Shown: one piece after another, positions 1 to 43,780 of the stretch
Numbering within the stretch: the first letter of the stretch is position 1
Layout of the letters: every line of letters begins with the position of its first letter
Source: a virus
Direction: 5' to 3' (one strand)
DNA length: 43,780 bases
Virus record (IMG/VR): IMGVR_UViG_3300046505_000105
Coordinates: 1-43,780 of that record
Notes under the pieces: generated by a model
Told to the model about the DNA's origin: nothing
Databases searched by the model: none
Seen by the model: the letters and a program-made list of their open reading frames with translations, nothing else
Program-made: the position numbers and the translations under genes

Positions 1-127
1 ATAAAACGCCGGGTCCCCGTCCACCACCACCGCCCCCGCCTGTGCCGTTGTTGTCATAAAGCAAAAGTAGAAAGCAGAAAGCAGAAAACAGAAATAAACC
101 GGCCGGCCACTGCCCCATTTCTGCTGT
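1..127. repeat. Terminal direct repeat, left copy (circular contig overlap)
   Basis: Bases 1-127 are identical to bases 43654-43780. A 127-base exact end overlap is what a k=127 assembly leaves on a circular or circularly permuted molecule, so I read the real unit as 43,653 bp. A genuine packaged short terminal repeat is the alternative. The repeat falls inside a leader ORF and the start of the tail gene, which argues for an assembly overlap. Confidence 0.9.
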
Positions 128-2009: not shown

Positions 2010-2714
2010 TTAGGCCATTCCCCCGCCCCCTTCTCCCCCTATCCCCACCCCGCCGCCGGGTGGCGGCGGCGCCCCGCCGCCTGCTGCTTCCACCACCGGC
2101 CGGTGATGGTGATGATGCCTGCACCCCCACCGCGGCCGTTTCAGCCACACTGGCAGCGCGTCCCACGCCCGCTGTTGCGCCCGCCCCAGCGCCTTCTCTG
2201 CCAGCCCGTAATTCACTCCTGCCAGCGCCGCGTCCCCGTCCGCCTTGGCCAATTCCCCCCCCACCATATAAGCCAGGTACGCCTTGAACCGTCTGGGCAG
2301 CGTGTACGCCGCCAGATCCGCCGCCGCCACCGCCGTCAGGTCCGGGCACGGCAACTGATACACCGGCCACACACTGTCGCGGTGGCCATCTATCCGCACC
2401 ACATTGTCCCCCTCGTTGAAATCGAACCACGGCGTTTCGTCCAGCCTATGCGGCTGCCGCTCGTAATAGCCCAGCACATCGCCCAATTCACCCGCCGTGC
2501 CCTCGTTCTTGCTGAAAGCGTGGTCCGCCACCGCCACCGCCGCCGCGCTCACCTTCAGCAACTCCGGCCATACCGCTCCCTCCCAAATCGTCTGCAAGTG
2601 CGTATCCAGCCAGCCCCGCATCATCACGCCCTCGCTCGGCGGCACCTTGTCCCGCGTCCGGCCGGCGTTCTCCGCCGCCTGGTCCACAATGGCCTGTACC
2701 GTCGTGCTAATCAT
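2010..2714 (-). CDS. Connector/adaptor-like structural protein (tentative)
   Basis: 234 residues from ATG 2714; a TTG two codons upstream is possible. The N-terminal half is helical (ISTTVQAIVDQAAENAG... TIWEGAVWPELLK). It has the general look of phage head-tail adaptor proteins, but I recognise no specific family. The C-terminus is low-complexity: CRHHHHHRPV then Gly/Pro runs (GGGAPPPPGGGVGIGGEGGGG). A type B GC palindrome (2063-2081) is translated there. The five-histidine run is natural sequence. The gene sits between the lysis-type hydrolase and the exported fibre genes. A structural role is inferred from context. Confidence 0.5.
   Translation of the reverse strand: MISTTVQAIVDQAAENAGRTRDKVPPSEGVMMRGWLDTHLQTIWEGAVWPELLKVSAAAVAVADHAFSKNEGTAGELGDVLGYYERQPHRLDETPWFDFNEGDNVVRIDGHRDSVWPVYQLPCPDLTAVAAADLAAYTLPRRFKAYLAYMVGGELAKADGDAALAGVNYGLAEKALGRAQQRAWDALPVWLKRPRWGCRHHHHHRPVVEAAGGGAPPPPGGGVGIGGEGGGGMA
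2063..2081. repeat. GC palindrome B, copy 1
   Basis: GCGGCGGCGCCCCGCCGC-type palindrome, translated as GGGAPPPP in the connector-like protein. Confidence 0.75.
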
Positions 2715-3253: not shown

Positions 3254-3304
3254 GTAGCTGCGGCGTCCCGCCGCAGAAAGGTGGCTGCGGCGCCCTCGCC
3301 GCAG
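3254..3304. repeat. GC palindrome B, copies 2-3
   Basis: Two GTAGC/GTGGC-headed palindromes, TGCGGCG-(TC/CCCT)-CGCCGCA, fill the gap between the hydrolase and the coiled-coil gene. They are variants of the main GGCGGCG type with both arms changed together. Confidence 0.75.
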
Positions 3305-3658: not shown

Positions 3659-3712
3659 GTAGCTGCGGCGCCCCCGCCGCAGTTCCCGGTAGCTGCGGCG
3701 CCCTCGCCGCAG
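3659..3712. repeat. GC palindrome B, copies 4-5
   Basis: Two GTAGC-TGCGGCG-CCCYC-GCCGCA palindromes in direct orientation, 30 bases apart, in the short gap upstream of the coiled-coil gene. Confidence 0.8.
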
Positions 3713-4154: not shown

Positions 4155-4514
4155 TCAGTTTTGTTTTGTTTGGTTCGTAGCGGCGGCGCCCTCGCCGCCG
4201 TCCCCCGCCGGTTTGTTTTCCACTGCTGGCTGGGCAAAAGGCGACGGCCCTTCTTTATTAACCCGGTCCACCTCCGCCGCCACATTGTTCACCGTCCTGG
4301 CATCAGCGGCGAACAGCGCCGTCAAGCCCTTGCCTACCGCCGAGAGGATGAACCCGGCCAGCGCCACGTACCACATGAGGGCAAGCTGGTCGGAGTCCAG
4401 AATGAAGGCCGAATTCGGCGAAAGTTGGCTTGCTTGCGCCAGCACCCCCACCCCAATCAGCGACGTCCCCAGAACTGAAATCGCCCCGCCCAGATTGGTT
4501 TGCCAATGTGTCAT
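4155..4514 (-). CDS. Holin-like two-helix membrane protein
   Basis: 119 residues. There are two hydrophobic helices: ISVLGTSLIGVGVLAQAS near residues 12-29 and LMWYVALAGFILSAVGKGL near 46-64. A charged tail follows. Its start overlaps the stop of the upstream membrane gene (ATGA at 4511-4514). Size, topology and position next to a peptidoglycan-type hydrolase fit a class II-like holin. The last residues (GDGGEGAAATNQTKQN) come from a type B palindrome copied into the 3' end. Confidence 0.55.
   Translation of the reverse strand: MTHWQTNLGGAISVLGTSLIGVGVLAQASQLSPNSAFILDSDQLALMWYVALAGFILSAVGKGLTALFAADARTVNNVAAEVDRVNKEGPSPFAQPAVENKPAGDGGEGAAATNQTKQN
4177..4200. repeat. GC palindrome B, copy 6
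   Basis: GTAGC-GGCGGCG-CCCT-CGCCGCC palindrome, translated in frame as GGEGAAAT in the holin-like protein C-terminus. Confidence 0.85.
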
Positions 4515-6767: not shown

Positions 6768-6819
6768 GTAGCGGCGGCGCCCTCGCCGCCGATTGTTTAG
6801 TCGCGGCGCCCCCGCCGCC
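6768..6819. repeat. GC palindrome B, copies 7-8 (intergenic pair)
   Basis: Two palindromes fill the 72-base gap between genes 6375-6755 and 6828-7472. The first is GTAGC-GGCGGCG-CCCT-CGCCGCC; the second has one shortened arm. Confidence 0.8.
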
Positions 6820-6827
6820 CAACCCCC

Positions 6828-7472
6828 TTAAAATTGTATATCGCTCCCGCGCCAATCAAACTTGTTGCTCACCACCAGCAGATCCATCCCCAAACTGGCG
6901 CTGAACCAGTCCCAGCGGAAGTAACAAGCCCCCTGGAAGTTCGTCCGGTTGAGGATCACGAAATACTCGTTCGTCCCGACGCCTGTTACGGCTATCGCCT
7001 GCATCAACGGCGTGTTCGTCGTGCCCAGCACCGCGTCATCGCTCAGGTCAAACCCAAATGTCGCCGTCCCGTTCGTGGTGGAGTTGGTTTGGTACATCAT
7101 CACCGCCATCGTCAGATCCACGTTCGGCGGTATCCGCACCCAGCCGTTGGCCATCTTGAAATTCGGCTGCCCGGCCAGTGTATTGTTCAGGTAATAACCC
7201 GGCGCGCCCGCCAGCAGCGGCAATGTTGCGCCCATCTGCACGTATTGCGTCACCCCCGCCGATCCGGGTGAATAATTGGGTGTAATTATGCTGTTCGTCA
7301 CATAATTCGTCGCCCAGGTGCCGCTGCTGGAGTACTGATTGGTAAAGATCACCGTGTTTGTGATCGTGCCCAACCCTAGCGGCAGAATCCTGAAATCATT
7401 CTGCGCCCGGACCGTCATCCCCGCCAGCAATGCCGCCGCGAGGCCGATAACTGCTAACATTTTTAATTTCAT
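6828..7472 (-). CDS. Exported beta-rich protein with ordinary Sec signal peptide
   Basis: 214 residues. A standard signal peptide (MKLKMLAVIGLAAALLAG, probable cleavage after VRA) is not repeat-derived. The mature part is Asn/Thr-rich beta sequence without catalytic motifs (TNTVIFTNQYSSSG ... YFRWDWFSASLGMDLLVV). The leader AAAGCAGAAATTATG matches that of the other exported genes. It sits just downstream of the head genes, where a decoration or tail protein is expected; export of such a protein is odd for a phage. Function unknown. Confidence 0.65.
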   Translation of the reverse strand: MKLKMLAVIGLAAALLAGMTVRAQNDFRILPLGLGTITNTVIFTNQYSSSGTWATNYVTNSIITPNYSPGSAGVTQYVQMGATLPLLAGAPGYYLNNTLAGQPNFKMANGWVRIPPNVDLTMAVMMYQTNSTTNGTATFGFDLSDDAVLGTTNTPLMQAIAVTGVGTNEYFVILNRTNFQGACYFRWDWFSASLGMDLLVVSNKFDWRGSDIQF

Positions 7473-7488
7473 AATTTCTGCTTTCCTT

Positions 7489-7519
7489 GGCCCGTGAACC
7501 TTCGTTTTAGTTCACCGGG
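7489..7519 (-). repeat. Hairpin repeat D, copy 2
   Basis: Same 31-nt element as at 1961-1991, in the same position relative to the downstream start codon. Confidence 0.75.
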
Positions 7520-7549
7520 CGGTTTTGGTTATTTGTTGACTGGCCTTGA

Positions 7550-7579: not shown

Positions 7580-8091
7580 TCCATCCCGTTAAAATTCGCC
7601 CCGCTCAAATTCAATTTCTGCTTTCTGCTTTCTGCTGTCCCCCTGTGCAGTAATTCCCTGTCCCCTACTGCACGGGGTGAGCCAATTTCTGCTTTCTGCT
7701 TTCTGCTTTCTGCTTTTGGTTCCCATCCCACCACCGTCTTGCCGCTCACCGTTTTCACCCGGCACGCCGGGTTGCTTTTCAGCACCTCCTTCACCACTTC
7801 CCGCACCCCGTCCGGCGTTTCCGTCCAATGCGGGTCCAGGTCCGCCCGGTTCATCAGGTGGTAGAACAGATCCTCCGGTATGCTCGCCACCACCCGGCCA
7901 AACTCGTAGCCGTCCGCGTCCCGCAGCGGCAGCCGTTCCATGGGCGGCGCGGTCTCATTCCTTTGCAGCGCACTCTTGTTCACCACCAGCCGCGCCTTCT
8001 CCGCATCCGCAAAAAATTCCACCAGCGCCCGGGGATCATCCCCCGTCTGCCGGCAAACATCCTCCACCGTCGTTATCACATGCGCCCCCAT
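7567..8091 (-). CDS. Head-region protein with repeat-derived C-terminus
   Basis: 174 residues from ATG 8091. Residues 1 to about 125 are ordinary (TTVEDVCRQTGDDPRALVEF ... GVREVVKEVLKSNPACRV), helical, and of unknown family. From about residue 126 the frame runs into repeats: KAESRKQKAEIG (heptamer A), GSPRAVGDRELLHRG (hairpin C) and AESRKQKLNL (heptamer A again). It stops inside a D hairpin. The original stop has apparently been lost to or displaced by the repeats. Position two genes after the capsid gene suggests a head completion or capsid-associated protein. Confidence 0.6.
   Translation of the reverse strand: MGAHVITTVEDVCRQTGDDPRALVEFFADAEKARLVVNKSALQRNETAPPMERLPLRDADGYEFGRVVASIPEDLFYHLMNRADLDPHWTETPDGVREVVKEVLKSNPACRVKTVSGKTVVGWEPKAESRKQKAEIGSPRAVGDRELLHRGTAESRKQKLNLSGANFNGMEPVK
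7640..7677 (-). repeat. Hairpin repeat C, copy 4 (GCAG variant)
   Basis: Arms CCCC-T-GTGCAGTA / TACTGCAC-GGGG. The G:C pair of the main type is replaced by C:G in both arms. Translated in frame at the end of gene 7567-8091. Confidence 0.85.
7687..7716 (-). repeat. Heptamer A tract in coding sequence
   Basis: Four tandem AAAGCAG units, encoding KAESRKQKAE in the head-region protein. None of the three frames contains a stop. Confidence 0.85.
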
Positions 8092-8098
8092 TGTTGGG

Positions 8099-8163
8099 AA
8101 AAGTAGAAAGTAGAAATTGGGAAATCAGAAATATTTCTGCCCCCTGCTTTCTACTTTCTGCTT
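8099..8163 (-). repeat. Heptamer A tract, intergenic
   Basis: AAAGCAG/AAAGTAG repeats, including the TAG-bearing variant, fill the gap between genes 7567-8091 and 8165-8650. Confidence 0.75.
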
Positions 8164-8164
8164 G

Positions 8165-8650
8165 TTACTTCGCCGGCGATTCCGGCCGCGGCGCAAAACC
8201 TTGCGGCGGGTAATCCACGGCCTTGTGGCCTGAGGCCACCCATTCCGCGAGTGTCGGCCCGTCCTGGCGCAGCGCAAACGGCTGCTCTCCGCGTAGAGCC
8301 TCCGGCGGGTAATCCACGGCCTTGTGGCCTGAGGCCTCCCACTCCGCGAGTGTCGGCCTGTCCGTTGCCGGACCGGGGTAATCCTCGGCCTTATTCCCCC
8401 TGGCCAGCCACTCGTTGAGCGTCGGCCGGTCCTGGCGCAACTGCGGCGGATCCACTTTCACCAGGTCCAGTTGCTCCGCGCCATGGGCGTAATGGAACTT
8501 CCATTGCCGGCCCTTGTCATCCTTCACCGTCACGGACTCGGGCCTTAGGCTGAGCACCGTCACCGTTATGTTGCGCGGTATTTTGCCGGTTTCATCCGGC
8601 CCCTTCACCACCAGCTTTTGTCCTACCGTTAATTCATTGTATTTGATCAT
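8165..8650 (-). CDS. Protein with triplicated RPTLAEW...DYPP motif
   Basis: 161 residues. The N-terminal half is a small beta domain (KYNELTVGQKLVVKGPDE ... NITVTVLSL) that looks SH3-like. The C-terminal half has three spaced copies of a motif of about 18 residues: RPTLNEWLARGNKAEDYP, RPTLAEWEASGHKAVDYP and GPTLAEWVASGHKAVDYP. The DNA copies at about 8213-8250 and 8300-8345 are nearly identical, so the last duplication is recent. It lies immediately after the capsid gene and is probably a virion or capsid-associated protein. No family recognised. Confidence 0.6.
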   Translation of the reverse strand: MIKYNELTVGQKLVVKGPDETGKIPRNITVTVLSLRPESVTVKDDKGRQWKFHYAHGAEQLDLVKVDPPQLRQDRPTLNEWLARGNKAEDYPGPATDRPTLAEWEASGHKAVDYPPEALRGEQPFALRQDGPTLAEWVASGHKAVDYPPQGFAPRPESPAK

Positions 8651-8780: not shown

Positions 8781-9896
8781 TTAGGTCAGCGCGTGAAAAC
8801 CAAACCCCATCGGGTTCAGCACCACCGGGCCGCCATACGTCCGCAGCAGCTTCGTCACGCCGCCGCCGTCGTGTCCCAGCTCGTCGGTTTCAAACCCCAC
8901 TCCAAACCGCAGCGCCAGCTTCTCCTGGCTGATAATCAGCCCGTAATTCGGCTTGCTGATGAATACCCGGTTCGCCCGCACCGCCGTCGCCGCGCCGTTC
9001 ACGTCCGTGGCCGTCGTGCCAATAAAGTCCGTGTCCTTTATCAGCAGCGTCCCGTAATCGCTGTACACCACGTCAATCCGCGCGCCCAGTTTCTCGTCTT
9101 TCATCTCCTGGGTGAACGTGTTGAGCTGGCCGGCCACCGCCCCCGCCGCGCCCTGGAGGGCCATCGGCTTGATCAATCCCGTCACCGCCTGGCGCAGGCC
9201 CAGTCCGCACAGGTACCAGTAAGTGCCGTTGCGCTGCGTCGCCTGGCGCAGTGCCAGCAGCGCGTTTTGCAGCAAGGTCTGGCTGAACGTGTCCGCCAGT
9301 GTGCCCGCCGCGCACGCCCCCGCCGGCGCGTAATGCAGATCGCTGGGCACGCCCAGCACCGCCGCGTTCGGGTTCGCGTAGCTGTTGTTGTGGTCAATCA
9401 GGCTCTTGATCCCGGCGCAAATGCCGCCGTTCGCCCCGCCCTGGTCCACGTTGAACGTCTGGTCAAAGCTGGCCATCGCGCACTCAATGGATTGCTTGAG
9501 CATCACCATTGCCCGCACGCTGCCCGTTTTGCGGAAGCCCCGGCCCGTTCCCGGCATTATCGGCACCTTCTCCGCGATCCAGCCCGAGCCATAGCCCTGC
9601 CGGAACGCCTGGCCGCCGTTGCCCACCTTGCGCCGGTTCGCCACCACATCCATCACCTCCGTCGCCACCTGCAGCGGATAACTGTCGCCGCTGCCCAATG
9701 CTCCTTGGGGTGGATTCCAACTATCCACCTCGTGCCAAAACTCCGTGTTCCCCAGCTCCTTCTCGCGCCGCGCCATCGTAAAGAGCGGCGTGCTGGCCGG
9801 ATCGTACATATCCAGCACATCCAGCATGTCCTCAAAGGGCAGGTCCCTATAAGCCGAACTGGCCGACCTCAGCCCCGGTTCTGTCGTCAATGCCAT
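8781..9896 (-). CDS. Major capsid protein (SU10/DUF5309-like)
   Basis: 371 residues. The N-terminus (SAYRDLPFEDMLDVLDMYDP, then STPLFTMARREKELGNTEFW) and the overall pattern match HK97-fold capsid proteins of the SU10/DUF5309 kind as I know them. These include a central helix with FDQTFNVDQ and a C-terminal beta domain with KDTDFIGT and NRVFISKPNYG. The order scaffold then capsid supports this. GGAAAGAAAG precedes the ATG by 7 bases and acts as ribosome binding site. The gene has no type B or A repeat inside it, unlike several of its neighbours. It assembles the procapsid shell with the scaffold 10098-11339. Confidence 0.8.
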   Translation of the reverse strand: MALTTEPGLRSASSAYRDLPFEDMLDVLDMYDPASTPLFTMARREKELGNTEFWHEVDSWNPPQGALGSGDSYPLQVATEVMDVVANRRKVGNGGQAFRQGYGSGWIAEKVPIMPGTGRGFRKTGSVRAMVMLKQSIECAMASFDQTFNVDQGGANGGICAGIKSLIDHNNSYANPNAAVLGVPSDLHYAPAGACAAGTLADTFSQTLLQNALLALRQATQRNGTYWYLCGLGLRQAVTGLIKPMALQGAAGAVAGQLNTFTQEMKDEKLGARIDVVYSDYGTLLIKDTDFIGTTATDVNGAATAVRANRVFISKPNYGLIISQEKLALRFGVGFETDELGHDGGGVTKLLRTYGGPVVLNPMGFGFHALT

Positions 9897-9914
9897 AAAT
9901 CTTTCTTTCCGTTT

Positions 9915-9975
9915 GGCCCGTGAAGTTCTCGGCCCGTGAACCTTCGTTTTAGTTCACCGGGTTTACTTCACCGGG
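9915..9975 (-). repeat. Nested hairpin repeat D, copy 4
   Basis: Outer arms GCCCGTGAAGT / ACTTCACCGGGC enclose a complete inner copy GGCCCGTGAACC...AGTTCACCGGG. One D element has apparently inserted into the loop of another. It lies just upstream of the capsid start. Confidence 0.75.
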
Positions 9976-9999: not shown

Positions 10000-10031
10000 A
10001 ACTGAACCTTCAACTCCCCATTTCTGCTGTC

Positions 10032-10069
10032 CCCCTGTGGAGTATTCCCTTGTCCCCAACTCCACGGGG
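10032..10069 (-). repeat. Hairpin repeat C, copy 5
   Basis: Perfect GTGGAGT / ACTCCAC copy, intergenic and untranslated, between scaffold and capsid genes. Confidence 0.85.
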
Positions 10070-10097
10070 TGAATGCTTTCCCAATTTCTGCTTTTCC

Positions 10098-11339
10098 CTA
10101 CATCCCCACCGCTTCCAGCACCTTGGCCAGGTCCTCGTCGCTCCTGCTTTTGGCGTACCTCTCCTTCGCCGCTTTCAAGCCCGTCAAACCCGTTGGCCGC
10201 GGTGCGCTGTGTCCCAGTTGCGGTAACGCCCCGCGCCGTGGTAGTGTAGTGGCGGCGGCGCCCCCGCCGCCTTTCGTAGCAGTAGCCGCGGCGCCCCCGC
10301 CGCCGTTCCGCGCCTGCGCTTCCAGCAGCGGACCCAGCACGCGATGCCCTATCACCGCCGCCGCGCTCCAGTAATCACCCCCGGCCAGACTCTGCATCAG
10401 CGGCATCCGGCGGAATTGCTGGTACAGCGCGTGCTGCTCGCTTTCCTCGTCCGCCAGAAACGGCGCCGCTTTGGCCACTTCCGGCCTCGCCAGAAACTTG
10501 CCAAAGTTCGTCCGCGCTCCGTTCACCGCCTTGGCCCTTTCGCGCTGCGTCGGTATCTGCCGCAGCCGTTCCTTGATCCGTTGCCGGCTAGAGCGCAATT
10601 CCCGGCCCATTCGTGCCGCCGTCCAATCCGGCTGCCCGCTGGCGTCCTTGAAATCCGCGCCCAATCCGCGCAACACTTCCGCCACGCCATCCGCATCCGT
10701 GCCCAGTTGCGCAATCAGATCCTCCGTCTGGTCCAGCCCCTGCTGGTTGGCCGTTTCCAGGTCCGCCAGCTTGCGCTCGTCAAATATCAGCGCCGCATCC
10801 GTCGTTGGTGCCGCTCCATTCCTGTCGGGGCTGTTGCGCAGCTCCTCAATCTGCTGCTGCTGCTTTTCCAGCGCCCCCAGCAATTTCCCAATCCGCTTTT
10901 CCAGATTCTTCGTCGCCGGGTTCGTAGCGGTAGCGGCGGCGCCCTCGCCGCCGGGTGCAGTTTCTTCCGTGGCCGCGGCGCCCTCGCCGCCTTCCGTTGT
11001 AGTCGCGGCGCCCTCGCCGCCGGCCTCTTCAGTGGTAGCCGCGGCGCCCTCGCCGCGTTCCGTTTCTAAAAGTTCAGTTGTTTCGCCCGTCTCGATTTTC
11101 GGGACCGGCGGTTGTTTCGTTTTGTCAGGCTCGCCCGTTAGCAACTGGTCGAGTCTGGTTTCGAGGCTGGGAGATGGTTCGGCGGTTTCAGTCGCTGGCC
11201 CCGGTGCGGCTGGGGCTTCCGCGCGCCCCTTTGGTAGTGCAATGGCTGGCATAGGTTTGTTAATTGGCCCTTTCCCTAGCGGGCCACGGTTTGTTTCGTT
11301 TTCGGTTGACGGTATCCGCTCCGTCTCACGTGCCCCCAT
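10098..11339 (-). CDS. Head scaffolding protein with six palindrome insertions
   Basis: 413 residues. It is acidic and Ala/Glu/Gln-rich with a coiled-coil core (KNLEKRIGKLLGALEKQQQQ), then helical segments and a C-terminal helix (EDLAKVLEAVGM). The layout and position directly before the capsid gene fit a scaffold. Residues about 95-140 hold four type B repeats in frame (GEGAAATT, GGEGAATTT, GGEGAAAT, GGEGAAATAT). Residues about 345-365 hold two more (GGGGAAATAT, GGGGAAATTLP). The copies sit in likely disordered segments. AAAGGAG lies 7 bases before the ATG, and a hairpin 37 bases upstream separates it from the accessory block. Confidence 0.65.
   Translation of the reverse strand: MGARETERIPSTENETNRGPLGKGPINKPMPAIALPKGRAEAPAAPGPATETAEPSPSLETRLDQLLTGEPDKTKQPPVPKIETGETTELLETERGEGAAATTEEAGGEGAATTTEGGEGAAATEETAPGGEGAAATATNPATKNLEKRIGKLLGALEKQQQQIEELRNSPDRNGAAPTTDAALIFDERKLADLETANQQGLDQTEDLIAQLGTDADGVAEVLRGLGADFKDASGQPDWTAARMGRELRSSRQRIKERLRQIPTQRERAKAVNGARTNFGKFLARPEVAKAAPFLADEESEQHALYQQFRRMPLMQSLAGGDYWSAAAVIGHRVLGPLLEAQARNGGGGAAATATKGGGGAAATTLPRRGALPQLGHSAPRPTGLTGLKAAKERYAKSRSDEDLAKVLEAVGM
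10246..10305. repeat. GC palindrome B, copies 9-10
   Basis: Two direct copies, translated as GGGGAAATATKGGGGAAAT near the scaffold C-terminus. Confidence 0.85.
10930..11058. repeat. GC palindrome B, copies 11-14 (cluster of four)
   Basis: Four copies spaced 30-39 bases (10930, 10969, 10999, 11035), all in the same frame of the scaffold gene. The arms differ: GGCGGCG, CGCGGCG with one mismatched arm, and a fully symmetric CGCGGCG/CGCCGCG in the last copy. Confidence 0.85.
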
Positions 11340-14992: not shown

Positions 14993-15358
14993 TTGCCGCG
15001 CCCGCCGCGCCATTTCCGCTTTCAGCCGGGTCCGCGTGCTTTCCACCTGCTGCACAAACTCCAGCACCCCAGCGGCGCGGTCGCAAAAACGGGCCCGCTC
15101 CTCTCCGCGCGCGCCCAGCCCCGCCGCCGTGTTGTTTTCAAACACCACAAACGCGTGATCCATTAGCGCCCGATACATCGGGTCCCCCTCCGGCGTCTGC
15201 GCCAGCGTGCGGTCGTTTCCCTCCAGGTCCGGCAACGGCCGCTCGGGGAGCGCCGTAGCGGCGGCGCCCTCGCCGCCGTTCCCTGCTGTACGCCCCAGAA
15301 ATATCCGCGCCGCTCCTTCGCACATCTTCGCCCACGTTGTCTTTTGTTTTTGACTCAT
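14975..15358 (-). CDS. Small helical protein near portal (unknown)
   Basis: 127 residues from ATG 15358 (MSQKQKTTWAKMCEGAARIF). It overlaps the upstream stop by 4 nt. A type B palindrome is translated near residue 28 (GNGGEGAAATALPE). The rest is helical (DPMYRALMDHAFVVFENN ... LEFVQQVESTRTRLKAEMAR). Position between portal and scaffold suggests a virion assembly accessory protein. Not recognised. Confidence 0.55.
   Translation of the reverse strand: MSQKQKTTWAKMCEGAARIFLGRTAGNGGEGAAATALPERPLPDLEGNDRTLAQTPEGDPMYRALMDHAFVVFENNTAAGLGARGEERARFCDRAAGVLEFVQQVESTRTRLKAEMARRARQAEKQK
15254..15278. repeat. GC palindrome B, copy 15
   Basis: GTAGC-GGCGGCG-CCCT-CGCCGCC, in frame in gene 14975-15358. 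Confidence 0.85.
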
Positions 15359-15600
15359 AATAGTTCCTTTTGCTTTTGCGGTGGCCACGGATTTTGCTCC
15401 AGCCACCAATCCTCAATTTCCACCTCGTGCGTGGCGGCGGCGACCCCGCCGCCGTCGGCTGCAGTTGCCCGCGGCGCCGGCCATTTCATCGTCCGCCGGC
15501 ACACGCTCCGTGGTATCCACAACCGGCTGCCGGCGTCGTTCTCATACAGCCGCGCCAGCCCGCTCCTCGCCTGCCGCACAAATTTTAATCTCAGCTCCAT
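15355..15600 (-). CDS. Small protein after portal (unknown)
   Basis: 81 residues. The basic N-terminus (MELRLKFVRQARSGLARLYE) is followed by a diverged type B palindrome (ATAADGGGVAAAT) and a Trp-rich end (EDWWLEQNPWPPQKQKE). It begins 29 bases after the portal stop and overlaps the next gene by 4 nt. Probably a small virion or assembly protein; no family recognised. Confidence 0.5.
   Translation of the reverse strand: MELRLKFVRQARSGLARLYENDAGSRLWIPRSVCRRTMKWPAPRATAADGGGVAAATHEVEIEDWWLEQNPWPPQKQKELL
15431..15454. repeat. GC palindrome B, copy 16 (diverged)
   Basis: GTGGCGGCGGCGACCCCGCCGCC-type copy with an altered loop, in frame in gene 15355-15600. Confidence 0.65.
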
Positions 15601-15629: not shown

Positions 15630-17885
15630 CTACTGACTGCCCTGGCCAACATCCGCCACCCCCAGCCGCCCCTGCATCTTGCTCAGCACCGTTTCCTGGT
15701 AGCTGTGCTGCAGATTTTCCATGTACGTCTGCCAGTTCTTTGCGTGCGCCTCGCTGTATCCCGGCCCGCCCTTCGTCAGCAGCGCCGAGAACTGCGGGTT
15801 GCCCTGCACCACCTGCTGCGCAAACATCATCTTCATCCGCGCCGTCGGGTCCTTCTCCGTCAGCAGCGGCTTGTTCCCCAGCATGATGTTGTTCACCTCC
15901 TCGCGCGTGTCCTTGAACACCTTCTGCTTCGCCCCCGCCTGGTCCAGCGTCACCTCCTCCGCCAGCGTCGGGTCCAGATAATTCAGCATCAGGTTCACCA
16001 ACTTGCTATGGTCCACCACGCCTCCCGTGTCCGTCTGCAAAATCTCCATCACCTGCTTGAACAGCATCTGCAGCCAGTCCGCGTCCATCGTCCGTACGTC
16101 AAACCACAGCGTCACCCGATGTTTCGCAATCAATTCCGCCGTCAGCAGCGGCTCACGCCCTATCACCGCCGTCAATTCCTCCCGGTCCATGTTCTGATAC
16201 GCCAGCACCGTCAGTTGCCACAGCGCCTCGCCCCACTTCGCCAGCCATCGTGTCACGTACCGTTGCAATCGCGCCTGGCTCCGCGCCGGCACGCTGTCCA
16301 CCCGCGGCAGCCCGTAGTAATCCTCCCCCTCCTTCTTTATTATTTCGTACAGCTTGAACGCCACGTCCGGTTTCGCGCCCGCCGTGAGATTCAGCGGCGT
16401 GTACGCGCCGCCCCCCGTCACGTCGTTTATTATCGCAAACGGTCCGAACTCCGGCGGCAGTTTGCTCGCCTGCGTCCCCTTCTTCACCAGCGGCGGAGTG
16501 TTGCTCAACTGGCTGTTTATAAACAGCATGTCGCGCTGCTGTTTTATTTCCACCTGCTGCGTGTTCACCACGTCGGGCACCCCGCGGCTGTCCCCCGGCC
16601 GCCACCCCGTCACCTCCAGCAGCAGATGTATGAACGGACTATGCTTGTGTCCCAGGTCCAGCAACCAGTGTTTGCCGTAAGCCTTCGCCAACTTGCTCCT
16701 GCCCTTGCCGCCTACCTCCGTTATCTGCCGGCTGAACACCGTGCAGAATATCCCCGGCGCCCCCTCCTCATTCGTTGCCCAGTTGAAACTGTAAATCAGT
16801 TCGATCAGATTCTGGTTTTCATCCGCTTGGTCTTCCACCGTCGTTTCGCTCGGGGTCGCCTTGCCTTTGGTCAACTTTACCGCCGCCACAAAGTCCGGGT
16901 TGTCCCACTGCTCCGCCGCCGCCCGCTCGTCCACCGCCCATTCCGGCAGCATCACGCGCACAAACCCCAGCCGCCCGTATTTCGGATTCGCCGTCGCCTC
17001 AATCGGCATCACAAAATGATACCACGGGCACAGCACCGCCAGCTCCGGGCCTATGCTGCTTTCCTCCGTCGTCTGCCATTCCGCCTCCCCCTTTTCCCGC
17101 AAATCCCGCACCACCCGCCGCGCCTCCTGCTTGTCAAAATCCGGCGCGAACATCCGCAGCAATTCCATCGCCGCCTCCTCCTGTGCCGGGTCCATGATCA
17201 TCTCCACCGCGTTCGCCAGTAGCGGCGTGGGCGTGGCGGCGGCGCCCTCGCCGCCGTCGGGTGAAGGTGGCCGCGGCGCCCCGCCGCCTGCCCGTTGTGC
17301 CATTTGCGCAATCTGCTCCATCGTTATCTTCTGCATCCGTATCTGCGCGTCCCGCCGCCAGGTCGGATGCAATATCGCCCACCCCACCATGCACATGATT
17401 TGCGCCGCCCGTTCCACGTCATCTATCAGCGCCTCCTGCAGCGGCCCATGCGTCAGCCAGCTTATCACCGTCCGCAGCTCCGCCGCCTGCGCCACGTTCA
17501 GCGCCCGCGCCGTCGTCGGGCTTGTCTTCATCCGCGCGTTCCAAAACGCCGTGTAAAACACATCCACCAGGCTGTTGATGATGTCGTCCGCGTGAAAGAT
17601 CCTCGTGTCCGGCGCGCCGTTATAAGGCAACGGTCCCCCCTCCATCCCTTGCGCTTCGTAAATGTCGGCGTGTTTCAACCCATCCGGGCTTTGCGCCGCC
17701 CAGCGCGAGTACCGCACATTCTCCACCTTCGCCAGGCGGTTGTCCGCGTCCGGGTCCTGGCTCCACGCCAGGTCGTATTCTTTTATCAGCGCCTCAATAT
17801 TCGGCTCCTGCGTTGCCCGCGCCAGTTCATCCGGCGCTCCCGGCCCCGTTCTGCTCACCGTCTCATCCGTCTTTTCATTTGCCAT
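15630..17885 (-). CDS. Portal protein
   Basis: 751 residues, large like podovirus-type portals. The N-terminal part (NIEALIKEYDLAWSQDPDAD ... RIFHADDIINSLVDVFYTAF), the central part with receptor-like strands and a long C-terminal helical tail (EKDPTARMKMMFAQQVVQGN) match portal architecture. The gene follows the terminase at one remove. It would form the dodecameric DNA channel at the capsid vertex. Two type B palindromes interrupt it near residues 200-218 (AGGGAPRPP, GGEGAAATPT), presumably in a surface loop. GAAAGGA lies 7 bases before the ATG. Its C-terminus (GRLGVADVGQGSQ) is unrelated to repeats. Confidence 0.7.
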   Translation of the reverse strand: MANEKTDETVSRTGPGAPDELARATQEPNIEALIKEYDLAWSQDPDADNRLAKVENVRYSRWAAQSPDGLKHADIYEAQGMEGGPLPYNGAPDTRIFHADDIINSLVDVFYTAFWNARMKTSPTTARALNVAQAAELRTVISWLTHGPLQEALIDDVERAAQIMCMVGWAILHPTWRRDAQIRMQKITMEQIAQMAQRAGGGAPRPPSPDGGEGAAATPTPLLANAVEMIMDPAQEEAAMELLRMFAPDFDKQEARRVVRDLREKGEAEWQTTEESSIGPELAVLCPWYHFVMPIEATANPKYGRLGFVRVMLPEWAVDERAAAEQWDNPDFVAAVKLTKGKATPSETTVEDQADENQNLIELIYSFNWATNEEGAPGIFCTVFSRQITEVGGKGRSKLAKAYGKHWLLDLGHKHSPFIHLLLEVTGWRPGDSRGVPDVVNTQQVEIKQQRDMLFINSQLSNTPPLVKKGTQASKLPPEFGPFAIINDVTGGGAYTPLNLTAGAKPDVAFKLYEIIKKEGEDYYGLPRVDSVPARSQARLQRYVTRWLAKWGEALWQLTVLAYQNMDREELTAVIGREPLLTAELIAKHRVTLWFDVRTMDADWLQMLFKQVMEILQTDTGGVVDHSKLVNLMLNYLDPTLAEEVTLDQAGAKQKVFKDTREEVNNIMLGNKPLLTEKDPTARMKMMFAQQVVQGNPQFSALLTKGGPGYSEAHAKNWQTYMENLQHSYQETVLSKMQGRLGVADVGQGSQ
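17232..17288. repeat. GC palindrome B, copies 17-18
   Basis: Two copies 35 bases apart inside the portal gene. One is read as GGEGAAAT and the other, one base shorter in its loop, as GGGAPRPP. Confidence 0.8.
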
Positions 17886-18641: not shown

Positions 18642-18662
18642 AAATTTCTGCTTTCTACTGTC

Positions 18663-18700
18663 CCCCTGTGCAGTAATTCCCTGTCCCCTACTGCACGGGG
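18663..18700 (-). repeat. Hairpin repeat C, copy 6 (GCAG variant)
   Basis: Same covarying GTGCAGTA / TACTGCAC arms as copy 4. It fills the short gap between terminase and the nucleotidyltransferase gene. Confidence 0.85.
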
Positions 18701-18718
18701 TGAACCAATTTCTGCTTT

Positions 18719-20677
18719 TTACCTCGCTCCCCAGCCCCGGCCGCCCACGACCTCCGGGATTCCTGGATCCATGAAATACGCCGGCACATCAAAGTCATAC
18801 CGCGTCGCGTCACAGCCGTCTTTTGCCGGATGGTCCGGCGTCCCGTCCCACATCTGCCAGCAGCGCAGCGTGTTCTTGCAGCGGTCGCTTATGTACAAGT
18901 GCGGCTCGTTCTCCGGCGTCAATCCGTGCGGCAGAAACTTCCCCAACGCCACATTCGCCTCCGCCTGTTCCGCGTTGTACGCCAGCAAATCCTTTATCTT
19001 GTCAATGTCCAGCTTCACCGTCTGCCGTATCTGTGCCGGCAAAAACTGCATCGGCGCGTAATCCATCTCCGCCGGCTGCGCCCGGTCTTCCTGGCTGAAC
19101 AATTCAAACAACGTCACCGCCCCCTCCTGCGCCGCCGCCGCCGTCGCAAACGCCCGCGGGTCACCCTTGCGCCAGATCGGCGTCTGCCCGTGCTCGCGCT
19201 CGCGCTCCCGGAATTTCTTCTTGTAATCCCGTATCCCCAGCTTCGCAAACAGCCGTTGCCCTTCCCCCGCCTTTCCGTCTATCGTCACCCACTCGCCCTC
19301 CTCCATCCTCGGAAACTCGTCAATGATGTACTGCCGCTGCAGTCGGTCCACGCCCTTCCATTGCGCGAAGTAACTCCGCGCCGTCACCGGGTCCGCCGCC
19401 ATGTACGTCGTCAGCTCGCCCGCCTTCAGCATCTTCTCTATCCGCTCGTGCGGTATCACGTGCACCGTCGGGTCCAGGTTCGCCAGCTGGCAGCCCGTCG
19501 TTTTCTCCGTCCAACCAAACAGCCGCACCAGCGCCTCCTCCCGCCCCTTGCCCGTGCACGCCATGAACAAGTCCGGCACCGCCGGGTTGGCCACGTTGCG
19601 CGGCAGAAACGGGTTCCAATGCGTCCACGTAAAAATCACCCCATGCTCATGGTTCAGCGGCTGCATGATAAACGGCATGTGCCCCGGCGGGCACCCCTTC
19701 ACGTAGCTCTCCGTCAGCTTCAGTTCCGGCAGCACTATCGCCGGGTTCACTCCCCCCTCTTTGCCGTGGAACCAGTCCCACTGCATCGGCAGACTCTTGA
19801 GCACCCGCGCCCCCTCCAGCGCCCGCGCGCACACCAGCGTAAATCCCTCCAGGCTCGTGAACGTCAGCAGCACAATCCCCGCGCGTTTCCGCGCGCGATA
19901 AATCAGCGTGTCCACCAGCGCTATCGGCGCCGGCTCGTCGAACCACACAAAGTCATATTCCGGCCCCTCAAAACTGTTCGGGTCCCGCATGTACTGCGCC
20001 ACCGTCTTGAAACTGCACTCGCTCTGGTTGGGCAGCATGAAATTCAACTCCGTAAATCCGCCGATCGGCGTGTAGTTTATCTTGATCACCTTGTGCCGCG
20101 CCTTCTTCGCCTGCATGTTCCACGCCCGCGCGTGCGTCGGCAGGTATTTGTACACGCTCCGCTGCTGATAATGAATGCTCGCGTCCTCGTTCGTCGCCAC
20201 GCACAGCACCCGCCGGCCCCGTTCCGCCGTCAAAATCTCCGCCGTAAACTTCCCGCCCATCTCCGTCTTGCCGCTCCCGTTCGCCCCCAGGTTAAAAATC
20301 ACCTTCTTCTGCTTCATCAAATGCCGGGCCTCGGCCCAGCACGGCAAATCCGGCGCATGGTTCAGCGGATCCTCCGCCGCCTGCCGCACCATCTCCTCGT
20401 GCCGCTCCCAATAATTCAGCACGTTGCTGTAGCCATCACTCTGCGTCCGCGCAAAATCCAGTTGCCGCGCCGTCAGTGGCGGGCAAACCCGGTCCACCAG
20501 CGGATGCCGCGTCCACTGTAGCGGCGGCGCCCCGCCGCCGGGTTGCCCGCCGTTCGTAGCGGCGGCGCCCCCGCCGCCGGGTTGCCCGCCGTTCGTAGCG
20601 GCGGCGCCCCCGCCGCCGGGTTGCCCGCCGTTCGTAGCGGCGGCGCCCCCGCCGCCGGGTTGGAGTTCACGCTTCAT
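18719..20677 (-). CDS. terL: Terminase large subunit
   Basis: 652 residues from ATG 20677, which overlaps the stop of the preceding small gene (ATGA). The ATPase domain has Walker A FNLGANGSGKTEMGG near residue 130 and Walker B DFVWFDEP near 244. A motif III-like LLTFTS follows, and the C-terminal part should hold the RNase H-like nuclease. It drives DNA packaging into the procapsid through the portal. The N-terminus is unusual: three tandem GGNQPGGGGAAAT units plus a GGGAPPL unit, from a 39-bp repeat built on a type B palindrome. The catalytic core begins only near residue 60. The frame extends upstream to 20995 but that is a shadow. Confidence 0.85.
   Translation of the reverse strand: MKRELQPGGGGAAATNGGQPGGGGAAATNGGQPGGGGAAATNGGQPGGGAPPLQWTRHPLVDRVCPPLTARQLDFARTQSDGYSNVLNYWERHEEMVRQAAEDPLNHAPDLPCWAEARHLMKQKKVIFNLGANGSGKTEMGGKFTAEILTAERGRRVLCVATNEDASIHYQQRSVYKYLPTHARAWNMQAKKARHKVIKINYTPIGGFTELNFMLPNQSECSFKTVAQYMRDPNSFEGPEYDFVWFDEPAPIALVDTLIYRARKRAGIVLLTFTSLEGFTLVCARALEGARVLKSLPMQWDWFHGKEGGVNPAIVLPELKLTESYVKGCPPGHMPFIMQPLNHEHGVIFTWTHWNPFLPRNVANPAVPDLFMACTGKGREEALVRLFGWTEKTTGCQLANLDPTVHVIPHERIEKMLKAGELTTYMAADPVTARSYFAQWKGVDRLQRQYIIDEFPRMEEGEWVTIDGKAGEGQRLFAKLGIRDYKKKFREREREHGQTPIWRKGDPRAFATAAAAQEGAVTLFELFSQEDRAQPAEMDYAPMQFLPAQIRQTVKLDIDKIKDLLAYNAEQAEANVALGKFLPHGLTPENEPHLYISDRCKNTLRCWQMWDGTPDHPAKDGCDATRYDFDVPAYFMDPGIPEVVGGRGWGAR
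20518..20657. repeat. GC palindrome B, copies 19-22 with 39-bp tandem array
   Basis: Four palindromes. Three lie in a 39-bp direct tandem repeat (starts 20556, 20595, 20634) with essentially identical units; the fourth (20518) is one base shorter. They encode the TerL N-terminal extension. A 39-bp unit keeps the frame. Confidence 0.9.
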
Positions 20678-20880: not shown

Positions 20881-22481
20881 TTCTGCTCTCTACTTTCCAA
20901 ATTTCTGCTTTGCCTTTCCCCCGGCACATCCTCGTCTCGTATCGCCGGCTCCGGCTCCTGCAAATAACACTTCGGTTTCTCCCCCGGATACTCATGGAAC
21001 TGCAGCGCCGGCTTGCAAAAATACAGCCAGCGGCTCGCGTTTTGCTGGCTGCCCGGCCAGCGCTGTTTGCTCAATATAAACTTCGCGTCCCATACCTTGA
21101 ACAGCCCGTCCATTTCCTTCCTCGTCTCGTCCGCCCCGTTCGGATAAATCGTCAGCTTCTCCTGCAACTCCGCCAGCTTCTCCGCCTTCTTTTCGTTGCG
21201 CAACATGCCGCACACGTTGTTCGCGTTGTCCGTCCATTGCTTGCTCCCTCGCACCCGGTCCTTCGCCCGGCTGTCACCGCCCTTGTTCTCGTGCACCACC
21301 AGAAAAGTGTGCGTCCCCGTCTTCACGCAGAAATCCGCAAACTGCGCCGCCGCCAGGCCCTGCGTCGCGTAGTCGTCATCCGCAATCCCTATCCGCATCA
21401 CGCTGTCCACCACAAACACCTCGCCCCCCAGATGCTCGCGCGCGTAACGGAACGTGTTCAGCAGCTCCCGCCAGTCCGTTATCCCCATGAAATTGTAGAT
21501 TAAAAACCGTTCGTTCAACCACGCCAGCGCGTGACGCGTTTTCCGCTCGTTCTCCGGGTTGCGTTCCAGGTGGCCCTCGCCCAACAGTTGCCGCGCCATG
21601 ATCCACAGCGTTATTTCCGGCGGCACCTCCATGCTCGCCAGCACCACCCGTTTCCGTGGCGGCGGCGCCCCGCCGCCGTTCGTAGCCGTAGCCGCGGCGC
21701 CCCCGCCGCCGGCCGTGTCAAATTGCTTCGCGCACTCAATGCAGATCTGGCCCAGCATCGAACTCTTCCCACTTCCGTTGTCTCCCGTGAACAGCGTGCA
21801 TTCCGCCGGCCGTATCCGCAGCGGAAAACCAAACGGCAGCGCATATCCGTAAGTGTCCTCCTTGCGTTCAAACCACGCGTTGAAATAAGCGTCCGCAAAA
21901 TCCGCCGGCGCGCACAGGTATTTGGGACTCGCCGTTCCCCGCTCCGTCAGCTTCTTCCACGTCAGAAAATTCTGGTCCACCTGCGCAAAGAACGCCTCGC
22001 TTGGCGCGCCCCCAAACTCCATCAGCAGACTGCTCTCCAGCACGTTCTTCTGTATCAGTTTCCGCGCCACAAACTTTTCCCAAACTATGTCCGCCCAATA
22101 CGGCCAGTTCGCCGCGCTCGGCACGGCCCCCATGCACTCGCCCAAATACGCGCCGCCGCCCACCTGTTCCAGTTGATTGCGCGTTGTCAGTTCTGCCGCC
22201 ACCGTGATCTCGTCCACCGGATTATTTTTGCTGTGCAGATACACGCACGCCGTCCAGATGGACTGCCGGCGCAGATCGTAAAACACCTCTTCATTCCCAA
22301 ACCTCTCCATCAATGCCGGCAGGACTGCCGGCGCGGCCAGCAACACGCATCCAATCAGCGCCGCCTCCGCCGCCACATTATGCGGCGGCAGCCGCATTTC
22401 TCCCTCTCCTGGGGGAGAGGGCGGACGTTTCCTCTTCAAACTCCCACCTGTCCCCGCCTGCTCTGAAACTGATTCAATCAT
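20877..22481 (-). CDS. dnaB: Replicative DNA helicase, DnaB-like
   Basis: 534 residues. The N-terminal domain begins LPPHNVAAEAALIGCVLLAA, the classic DnaB opening. ATG 22397 (MRLPPHN) is a possible start; residues 1-28 before it look disordered. The RecA-like domain has Walker A GDNGSGKSS near residue 233 and Walker B EVFVVDSVMRIG near 355. It unwinds DNA at the fork, probably loaded by the O-like initiator encoded upstream. Between Walker A and the next strand (residues about 257-275) two type B palindromes are translated (GGGGAAATAT, GGGAPPPRK). They lie in a surface loop of an essential enzyme. The C-terminal tail (RQSRNLESREQK) is heptamer-derived. Confidence 0.8.
   Translation of the reverse strand: MIESVSEQAGTGGSLKRKRPPSPPGEGEMRLPPHNVAAEAALIGCVLLAAPAVLPALMERFGNEEVFYDLRRQSIWTACVYLHSKNNPVDEITVAAELTTRNQLEQVGGGAYLGECMGAVPSAANWPYWADIVWEKFVARKLIQKNVLESSLLMEFGGAPSEAFFAQVDQNFLTWKKLTERGTASPKYLCAPADFADAYFNAWFERKEDTYGYALPFGFPLRIRPAECTLFTGDNGSGKSSMLGQICIECAKQFDTAGGGGAAATATNGGGAPPPRKRVVLASMEVPPEITLWIMARQLLGEGHLERNPENERKTRHALAWLNERFLIYNFMGITDWRELLNTFRYAREHLGGEVFVVDSVMRIGIADDDYATQGLAAAQFADFCVKTGTHTFLVVHENKGGDSRAKDRVRGSKQWTDNANNVCGMLRNEKKAEKLAELQEKLTIYPNGADETRKEMDGLFKVWDAKFILSKQRWPGSQQNASRWLYFCKPALQFHEYPGEKPKCYLQEPEPAIRDEDVPGERQSRNLESREQK
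21656..21711. repeat. GC palindrome B, copies 23-24
   Basis: Two copies, in frame inside the RecA-like core of the helicase. Confidence 0.85.
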
Positions 22482-22799: not shown

Positions 22800-22862
22800 T
22801 TATTCCATCCTCTCAGTGGCCGCGGCGCCCCGCCGCGCTTTTGTATCTTCGTCCTCTTTCAT
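22800..22862 (-). CDS. Possible 20-residue ORF made mostly from a B palindrome
   Basis: MKEDEDTKARRGAAATERME. Its TAA abuts the ATG of the HNH gene without a gap. It could couple translation or be chance. It contains palindrome copy 25. Confidence 0.2.
   Translation of the reverse strand: MKEDEDTKARRGAAATERME
22816..22838. repeat. GC palindrome B, copy 25
   Basis: Symmetric variant GTGGC-CGCGGCG-CC-CGCCGCG between the initiator and HNH genes. Confidence 0.8.
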
Positions 22863-37421: not shown

Positions 37422-38417
37422 TCATTTGGCCTGCCAGTTCGCGGCGTCGTTGGGATCTCCGCCCAGGTATTTCATGCCGGAATAAATCGAGCCTATGGCA
37501 TACCCGCCCTGCGCCGCCTTGGTAGCGGCGGCGCCCCCGCCGCCGTTCCCTCCGCCGCCCCCCACAGCCCTCTTCAAAATCCCCGCCCATTCATCATCGC
37601 TGCGCGGCACCGGCTTCCAGCCATCCTGCGGCCCGGTCCGGAAAAACTTCTTGTCCGTGCTGTATTGCACATCTTCACCGCCCGCGCGCTGTTCGGATAG
37701 CGGCAGCGCCTTCCAAATGCTGTTCGGTCCTTCCTGGAACATCTTCACCCCGTTGATGCTTTTCACCGTCGGCTCCCAGTCCGCCGGGATCTTCGCCTTA
37801 TCCGTAATCGGCCGCATCGAGGACGTCCCCGGCTCCCACCACGCCTTTTCTCCGGTGACCTCATCCCGTATTACACGCGGTTCCTGTTTGGGCTGCGTCA
37901 GCATCCCCTTGAGCGCCTCACCAAACATCGCCCCGCCTTCCGGGCCGTTCACCGCCTCCGGATTCTGGTTCAGGCTTTCCAGCATCGCGCGGCTGCCGGG
38001 GCTGGCATTCAACTCCGGCGCGGCCATCACCGGGTTCCTCAACGGCCCCCGGCCCAGGTCCAGCGTGCCGGGCAAATCCGGTTGCGGCTGTGTCCGTTGC
38101 AGCAAACTCGCCAGCACCCCCTTGATCGCCGCCTGCGCCCGCTGCCCCTTTTGATATTGCTCCTGCTTCTGCCGGTACTGTTCCTGTCCCTGTTTGAACT
38201 CGTTGGCCATGATGCTGCCCTTGATCTGGCCCAGGCTCATCTTGTCCACCTGTTCCGTGGGCAACCCCATGGCCAGCGCCACCTGCCGGTAACCCTTCAG
38301 CTCGTCCCGGCGGCGTCCGTAATCCTCGATGGCCTCGGATATCGCCTGCCCGCCACTGTTGATCCCCTGCGCCAGCAGTTCCCCGGCTCTGTTTTGTATT
38401 CCCGGCGCGTATGGCAT
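37422..38417 (-). CDS. Internal virion / ejection protein (tentative)
   Basis: 331 residues. The N-terminal half is helical and Gln/Glu-rich (FKQGQEQYRQKQEQYQKGQR). The middle is Pro-rich, and the C-terminal half contains WKALPLSEQ, KFFRTGPQDGWKPVP and a Gly-rich stretch ending in a type B repeat (GGGGNGGGGAAATKAA). GAGG precedes the ATG. The stop is two bases before the giant polyvalent gene, suggesting co-production of proteins that travel in the capsid. No family recognised. Confidence 0.5.
   Translation of the reverse strand: MPYAPGIQNRAGELLAQGINSGGQAISEAIEDYGRRRDELKGYRQVALAMGLPTEQVDKMSLGQIKGSIMANEFKQGQEQYRQKQEQYQKGQRAQAAIKGVLASLLQRTQPQPDLPGTLDLGRGPLRNPVMAAPELNASPGSRAMLESLNQNPEAVNGPEGGAMFGEALKGMLTQPKQEPRVIRDEVTGEKAWWEPGTSSMRPITDKAKIPADWEPTVKSINGVKMFQEGPNSIWKALPLSEQRAGGEDVQYSTDKKFFRTGPQDGWKPVPRSDDEWAGILKRAVGGGGGNGGGGAAATKAAQGGYAIGSIYSGMKYLGGDPNDAANWQAK
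37522..37545. repeat. GC palindrome B, copy 26
   Basis: GTAGC-GGCGGCG-CCCC-CGCCGCC, in frame as GGGGAAAT near the C-terminus of gene 37422-38417. Confidence 0.85.
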
Positions 38418-38455: not shown

Positions 38456-39010
38456 TCATTTCTGCTTTCCGTTTTCGTCGTGATGATCCCAAAAACACAC
38501 CTCTTCCAACTCCGCGCTGACGCTCCTTACCAGCTCCCACCCGCCGCAAATCAGACTAATCGCCCGGCACATTTCCAAGCCGCAGCTACGGTGAGTATCC
38601 GCCCACCGCTTCTGCCACTCCTCCGCCTCATCATCCTTTTCCCAGCGCACGCTGTCGGCGTACTGATTGGCAATCAACACCGTCAACAGGCGCAGCGCCG
38701 CGATATTCCGCAAATAAAACGGATGCGAGAGCACGATCACCCCCTGTGCAAACGCCGCCACGATCTGTTCCCGATCCTTCGCCGTCGGTATCCGTAGCGG
38801 CGGCGCCCCGCCGCCGGTTTCCCCTGATAGCGGCGGCGCCCCGCCGCCGTTCCCCGCCCCCTGTTCCGCCGTTCCTATTCCATCCACGATGTCATCAATC
38901 GCGTGCACCCAGCCTTGGAAGATGATAAAAAACTCCATCGCCTCGGGTTGCCCCTTGCACATCCGCCGGATCATCTCCCCGTCAATGATATGTTTGTGTG
39001 CTTCCGCCAT
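38456..39010 (-). CDS. Conserved-looking helical protein (unknown)
   Basis: 184 residues. IIDGEMIRRMCKGQPEAMEF then IIFQGWVHAIDDIVDG is a helical pattern that I have met in phage structural clusters but cannot name. Two type B repeats are translated near residues 55-72 (GGGAPPLSGE, GGGAPPLRI). The C-terminal half is helical with several Cys/Trp. The last residues (ENGKQK) are heptamer-derived. It lies between ejection-type genes. Confidence 0.5.
   Translation of the reverse strand: MAEAHKHIIDGEMIRRMCKGQPEAMEFFIIFQGWVHAIDDIVDGIGTAEQGAGNGGGAPPLSGETGGGAPPLRIPTAKDREQIVAAFAQGVIVLSHPFYLRNIAALRLLTVLIANQYADSVRWEKDDEAEEWQKRWADTHRSCGLEMCRAISLICGGWELVRSVSAELEEVCFWDHHDENGKQK
38794..38849. repeat. GC palindrome B, copies 27-28
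   Basis: Two direct copies 33 bases apart, one base shorter in the loop than the main type and so read as GGGAPPL rather than GGGGAAAT. Confidence 0.85.
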
Positions 39011-43710: not shown

Positions 43711-43780
43711 AAAGCAAAAGTAGAAAGCAGAAAGCAGAAAACAGAAATAAACCGGCCGGCCACTGCCCCATTTCTGCTGT
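43654..43780. repeat. Terminal direct repeat, right copy
   Basis: Exact copy of bases 1-127. It contains the first codons of the 808-residue tail gene and part of the repeat-built leader ORF that precedes it. Confidence 0.9.

Follow-up and report, generated by a model that had tools for sequence, protein, structure and literature searches.

Antisense REP palindromes in a phage genome: one orientation, one codon phase and a likely recent arrival from bacteria

In the window, i.e., the whole 43,780-nt stretch of viral DNA analysed here (IMGVR_UViG_3300046505_000105), four GC-rich palindromes were confirmed at 10930-11057 within a scaffold-like gene, and further copies occur in other genes and between genes. 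The question is whether these palindromes are old features of the encoded proteins or mobile repeats that reached the phage recently, and by what route. The two ends of the window (1-127 and 43654-43780) are identical over 127 nt, so that the genome is probably complete in this contig, either as a circular assembly or with a direct terminal repeat.

Form, number and reading of the palindromes

The + strand consensus is GTRGC-NGCGGCG-CCCY-CGCCGCN, in which the tag directly abuts an 8-bp stem, and the CCC(Y) loop of the main form has 4 nt or, in the shorter form, 3 nt. About 28 copies had been predicted, and 28 tagged copies with at most 2 mismatches were found in the 43.8 kb window, 27 by a whole-window scan and the 28th, at 3254 with 1 mismatch, by a direct mismatch scan (Table 1). 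No tagged palindrome appeared in 200 dinucleotide shuffles of the window, and the untagged core with at most 2 mismatches was observed 22 times against 0.87 expected (an excess of about 25-fold); a chance origin of the palindromes is thus rejected. Among the 27 scored copies, the tag is GTAG in 16, GTGG in 9 and decayed in 2, i.e., GTRG in 25/27. The outer stem pair is G-C in most copies, T-A in three intergenic copies of the 27-copy scan (3281, 3659 and 3689) and C-G in two, while six copies have a C-C mismatch; the claim that arm variants often keep pairing holds for the T-A and C-G forms but fails for the six C-C copies. The C outer variant, also present in a second phage described below, turns GCC into GCG in coding sense, a synonymous alanine codon. 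Covariation among 32 distinct phage and bacterial copies gave 22 compensatory cells versus 10.0 ± 2.2 after shuffling (0/500), with two stem pairs varying on both sides, and since some of the sequences are akin, this indicates consistency rather than independent events. Decayed copies are scarce, with a lone candidate (43380) between 2 and 4 mismatches, which suggests that the family in the phage is young. A look-alike at 33148, in a gene of fibre size, is without the tag and was left out of the count. Meanwhile, a tRNA-Thr called by ARAGORN at 20523-20614 is the palindrome array in the terminase gene and was rejected as a false positive.

It has been reported that GTAG/GTGG REPs carry GTAG or GTGG 0-2 nt 5' of a hairpin with a stem of 7-20 paired bases and a loop of 2-5 nt (PMC6006769). 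The tags given above and the stem and loop of the main form agree with this definition; the six C-C copies, with an uninterrupted stem of 6 bp, miss its strict rule. The sequence features strongly argue that the phage palindromes belong to the REP class, and the array is an actual and unusual feature: elements of a familiar type in a place where they are new.

Table 1. Tagged REP copies in the window, with the peptide read where a copy lies in a gene
Position	Strand	Form	Location	Reading and remarks
2060..2081	+	3-nt loop	g3 (2010-2720)	coding strand GGGAPPPP
3254..3275	+	1 mismatch	intergenic	paired with 3281
3281..3303	+	T-A outer pair	intergenic	
3659..3681	+	T-A outer pair	intergenic	
3689..3711	+	T-A outer pair	intergenic	direct pair with 3659
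4177..4199	+		g7, C-terminal	GGEGAAAT
6768..6790	+		intergenic g10/g11	
6797..6819	+	tag decayed to TTAG	intergenic	
10249..10271	+		scaffold-like gene, C-terminal part	GGGGAAAT
10282..10304	+		scaffold-like gene, C-terminal part	GGGGAAAT
10930..10952	+		scaffold-like gene, N-terminal linker	GGEGAAAT
10969..10991	+	C-C outer mismatch	scaffold-like gene, N-terminal linker	GGEGAAAT; sequence same as second-phage copies
10999..11021	+		scaffold-like gene	GGEGAATT
11035..11057	+	C-G outer pair	scaffold-like gene	RGEGAAAT
15255..15277	+		g25	GGEGAAAT; other palindromic repeat nearby in L015 orthologue
15431..15453	+		g26	GGGVAAAT
17233..17255	+		portal	GGEGAAAT
17267..17288	+	3-nt loop	portal	GGGAPRPP
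20518..20539	+	3-nt loop	terminase N-terminal extension	GGGAPPLQ
20556..20578	+		terminase N-terminal extension	unit of 39-nt tandem duplication
20595..20617	+		terminase	39-nt tandem duplication
20634..20656	+		terminase	39-nt tandem duplication
21656..21677	+	3-nt loop	DnaB-like helicase	GGGAPPPR; one half of the 57-nt insert that orthologues lack
21688..21710	+		DnaB-like helicase	GGGGAAAT; other half of 57-nt insert
22816..22837	+	3-nt loop, C-G outer pair	intergenic	
37522..37544	+		g38	GGGGAAAT
38794..38815	+	3-nt loop	g39	GGGAPPLR
38827..38848	+	3-nt loop, tag ATAG	g39	GGGAPPLS

All 28 copies lie on the + strand and are antisense to the genes, which are on the - strand in the cases examined and for all main genes under the chosen ORF set. 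Twenty of the 28 are inside ORFs: six in the scaffold-like gene, four in the terminase gene, two each in the portal, helicase and g39 genes, the others in g3, g7, g25, g26 and g38; the counts predicted for the first four genes were the same on rescan. The other eight sit between co-directional genes, an intergenic share above the approximately 9.5% non-coding fraction of the chosen ORF set, and direct pairs of copies, 27-42 nt apart, are common. Several genes had been described as free of the palindromes; the capsid gene (8781-9896) indeed has no tagged copy, while the integrase and ATP-grasp labels found no backing, the candidate genes tested giving no Pfam match.

All 20 intragenic copies are in the same codon phase and read GGxGAAAT, or GGGAPP with the 3-nt loop, exactly as predicted (GGGAPPL when the loop is one base shorter). 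In the other two antisense phases, the peptide would be RRRGRRRY or AARAPPL; it is readily understood that the Arg-rich one should be selected against, and the missing second phase is not fully accounted for. Three terminase copies resemble one 39-nt tandem duplication, and after merging of clusters and tandem duplications about 15 separate sites are left, 11 coding and 4 intergenic. Under a uniform expectation, the chance of a single orientation over 15 sites is about 6e-5, and the chance that all 11 coding sites share one phase is about 2e-5.

The window also contains other repeats. A second family, A (TTTCTGCTTTCTGCTTT), has about 25 sites, e.g., 7671-7717 and 33223-33269, with a strand bias for ATTTCTGCTTT of 25 + to 1 -; it is nearly absent from the sister phages, and its type is also found in the Verrucomicrobiota genome G325, where no REP of the phage kind was found, as in the rest of its order save one look-alike. 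An 87-nt repeat with the inverted repeat CTGTCCCCCTGTGGAGTATTCCC...CCACGGGGTGA occurs in six copies, mostly between genes (114-200, 1154-1240, 6264-6350, 7625-7711, 10017-10103 and 18648-18734), and a GGCCCGTGAACCTTCGTTTTAGTTCACCGGG hairpin repeat occurs in three (1939-1998, 7467-7526 and 9909-9968).

Orthologous genes in other phages

Four sister contigs were found through searches with the portal, terminase and capsid proteins; terminase and capsid are 88-91% identical to those of the window phage, and portal and helicase about 70-76%. One of them, L015, is syntenic with the window from g32 to g10, with identities of 88% for terminase, 91% for capsid, 76% for helicase, 71% for portal and 53% for the scaffold-like protein. 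A mismatch scan detected no REP copies in the four contigs. For instance, the helicase orthologues are without exactly 19 residues (57 nt) where the window has two REPs; the insert is placed directly after the Walker A helix, and the empty site in the sisters is in frame. The AlphaFold helicase model, with a mean pLDDT of 38, was set aside except for the position of the insert, which lies between a predicted helix and a predicted strand. The portal, scaffold and terminase copies occupy variable linkers or an extension at the N-terminus. Since the copies are absent from the sister orthologues, and since the peptide is not conserved at the same place there, they are recent insertions rather than old protein features, which supports the mobile repeats that the original prediction had proposed; the pattern named as its refutation, orthologues with matching palindromes at these positions, was absent from the four sister contigs. 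Neither a strain-level pair of empty and filled sites nor a transposition event turned up in this material, and the phage copies define neither a target duplication nor an insertion unit of fixed length or content.

In the g25 orthologue of L015 (about 8143-8646), another palindromic repeat, CTCACCCCGACCCTCTCC..GGAGAGGG, lies close to the spot of the REP and is read LTPTLSPASGGEGE, so that this spot tolerates inserts. Palindromes of the form CCCTCTCC...GGAGAGGG were also noted in this orthologue and in the N-terminus of the window helicase, read in frame as SPxxGGEGE or SPPGEGE.

A more distant phage, IMGVR_UViG_3300032893_000101 (44.5 kb; terminase 31% and portal 25% identical to the window phage), has six relaxed-core matches on one strand, five of them in full tagged form. 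Its four gene-mapped copies are antisense and all in the GGxGAAAT phase, with one pair in the terminase gene and another in a gene that looks scaffold-like from its position just upstream of the apparent capsid gene. The antisense one-phase pattern recurs in this phage (n = 2 phages).

Counterparts and RAYT genes in Chthoniobacterales-order genomes

In a GTDB-wide scan, the exact 24-mer was found in six genomes, one copy each, three of them Chthoniobacterales/Chthoniobacter MAGs; among 388 Verrucomicrobiota genomes, it was in no other than the seeded genome. The GGCGGCG-stem variant of the phage was in high copy in no sampled genome, with one copy per matching genome, and the donor host was not found. 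Dispersed copies of the generalised form GTRGCNGCGRCGCCYYCGYCGCNG occur in three Chthoniobacterales-order genomes, G407, G474 and G494, with 18, 14 and 11 copies and 0 in a reversed-pattern control, and these sister REPs share the tag, stem frame and loop with the phage REP; like the 28 phage copies, they are dispersed and multi-copy. The bacterial copies occur in both orientations and in several phases, the coding frame being picked by ORF length and GC3, so that single cases may be wrong.

Each of the eight bacterial genomes tested has Y1_Tnp (PF01797) genes, while neither the phage nor the sister record searched has a Y1_Tnp match, and the phage carries no REPtron. A RAYT gene flanked by REPs of this family was found for the bacterial sister REPs only, in two REP-RAYT-REP units in ClpB regions, with GTGG-tagged flanks in both. 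In G474, the RAYT is flanked by the inverted REPs GTGGCTGCGACGCCC[CT]CGTCGCCG, the entire unit lying in frame within a ClpB gene; in G494, another RAYT is flanked by GTGGAAGCGGCGCCCTCGCCGCTT and GTGGAAGCGACGCCTCGTCGCTT, and the 16-nt core GCGGCGCCCTCGCCGC of the GTGGAAGCGGCGCCCTCGCCGCTT flank is identical to the phage core. The suggestion that a RAYT-like transposase would be found near the element in the host is supported in that REPs of the same architecture flank Y1/HUH genes in Chthoniobacterales-order genomes, but the host itself was not found. Terminase homologues of 32-33% identity in two genomes of this order give only a hint of it as the host group; the host is probably verrucomicrobial.

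Pfam also places Y1_Tnp domains within housekeeping genes, where they split RecG, ClpB and carbamoyl-phosphate synthase into two parts; in one frame, the domain lies upstream of one resembling RecF/SMC (loci L111 (G474:C17), L109 (G494:C13), L093 (G005:C81), L112 (G002:C20), L101 (G005:C56) and L106 (G474:C86)). REPs flank the RAYT in the ClpB and RecF-like cases at least, and the literature searched contained no description of such in-frame RAYTs.

Origin of the copies and comparison with known systems

It has been reported that TnpAREP/RAYT acts on single-stranded REPs strand-specifically, guided by GTAG (PMC8266576), and that for related transposases, those of IS200/IS605, the lagging-strand template is the insertion target (PMC6006769). 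The likely reading is that GTAG/GTGG REPs of the Chthoniobacterales-order kind recently colonised the phage, with a host RAYT acting in trans as the most likely agent of their mobilisation. A host RAYT, a Y1/HUH single-strand transposase, would recognise the hairpin through the 5' GTRG guide and copy the REP into single-stranded phage DNA during replication; if the phage replicates unidirectionally and insertion is tied to one replication strand, all copies would take one orientation. Many copies would come in, or be duplicated, as direct pairs with a spacing of 27-42 nt, and those surviving in genes would be small, uncharged or mildly charged linkers (GGxGAAAT) in loops, linkers and terminal extensions, a single phase that purifying selection may have left. 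Judged by GC skew and gene direction, the tag-bearing + strand need not be the lagging-strand template, and the strand-coupling step is thus a guess. It counts against mobilisation in trans that known REPs are often inverted dimers, whereas the phage copies form direct pairs. The low copy number of the exact variant in the sampled genomes and the lack of any observed transposition event, empty/filled strain pair, target duplication or fixed unit weigh against it as well.

The main rival, which is rather unlikely, is that REP-derived hairpins entered from a host chromosome once or a few times and then spread within the phage without a transposase, by template switching, slippage or recombination. 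The 39-nt tandem duplication in the terminase gene, where in-phage amplification probably contributed, the similar spacing of the direct pairs and the single orientation would all fit such spread; coding-to-coding copying would give one phase in all 20 intragenic copies, and the exact variant is rare in the sampled genomes. However, about 15 sites have unrelated flanks, 4 of them intergenic, the GTRG tag outside the palindrome is kept in 25/27 scored copies, and the same REP class goes with RAYT in bacteria.

Selection for functional DNA or RNA signals of the phage, such as mRNA-end hairpins, processing sites or packaging sites, is improbable. The hairpins would be strong and GC-rich in mRNA, and the eight intergenic copies lie between co-directional genes, as bacterial REPs also do (Di Nocera et al. 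2013, PMC3733652), but the copies are absent from sisters with such similar terminase and capsid, they stand within the reading frames of many genes, and Rfam at its gathering cut-offs gave no match. Even less credible is the selection of GGxGAAAT linkers in structural proteins with spread by coding-sequence duplication, a reading to which the common phase of all intragenic copies and their location, mostly in variable linkers or terminal extensions, would lend themselves and which the sister phages and the intergenic copies have already largely refuted: the eight intergenic copies keep the same tag and orientation, the T-A outer pairs found among them keep the DNA palindrome where the usual phase would give Cys, the peptide is absent from orthologues, and bacterial copies use both orientations and other phases. 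An assembly or binning artefact is hardly conceivable, for although GC-rich repeats are hard to assemble and this is a metagenomic virus contig, it has a 127-nt end repeat, the examined REP-bearing ORFs run through uninterrupted in frame, flanks and variants differ from copy to copy, and a second contig shows the same pattern.

Beyond recent colonisation with the help of a host RAYT, it may tentatively be proposed that phages host their own translation-adapted REP lineage, of one phase and one strand, mobilised by host RAYTs while the phage replicates and carried with it between hosts, so that phages would be REP vectors. REPs are known as chromosomal repeats; the phage copies suggest that these host parasites can colonise phage genomes too. 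Twenty-eight apparently recent copies of the same orientation, with none in the sisters, offer a small, fast-replicating target for watching REP gain, the single orientation is a testable link to replication-strand-coupled HUH transposition, and the in-frame copies reveal insert-tolerant places in terminase, portal, helicase and scaffold-like proteins. The phage and literature searches returned no report of REP-rich phages, an absence in those searches that is not proof.

The GTAG-tagged REPs of Di Nocera et al. 2013 (PMC3733652) sit on chromosomes, commonly as inverted dimers and for the most part between genes, whereas the phage REPs are in a phage, in one orientation, mostly intragenic (20/28), in direct pairs and in one codon phase. 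Intergenic location and inverted dimers characterise how REPs are usually distributed on chromosomes, not the REP element itself. Opitutus terrae (Verrucomicrobia) is a known exception with intragenic units, having the most intragenic GTAG REPs of that study, and the tag of its GTAG-20 family is mostly GTGG. By description, GTAG-20 and the phage REPs are alike in having a short hairpin, perfect or nearly so, with a GTAG/GTGG tag on one side, in the large number of units located in ORFs and translated, and in their verrucomicrobial setting. In the REPtrons of E. coli, Stenotrophomonas and Marinomonas (PMC6006769, PMC8266576), the tag and hairpin are recognised by TnpAREP; as in these, the bacterial REPs of phage architecture flank a transposase gene in inverted arrangement, unlike the phage, which is without RAYT and has direct pairs. 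The CTCACCCC...CCCTCTCC palindromic repeat of the L015 g25 orthologue is likewise translated near the same protein spot but differs in sequence, in the one case examined. Similarly, Rickettsia palindromic elements (RPE), the classic case of in-frame palindromes, are inserted in protein-coding genes and translated (PMC3733652); the intragenic R. conorii CGTC repeats correspond to RPE-4 and RPE-6, and RPE-1 is longer. RPEs differ from the phage REPs in sequence and lie in Rickettsia chromosomes rather than in a phage.
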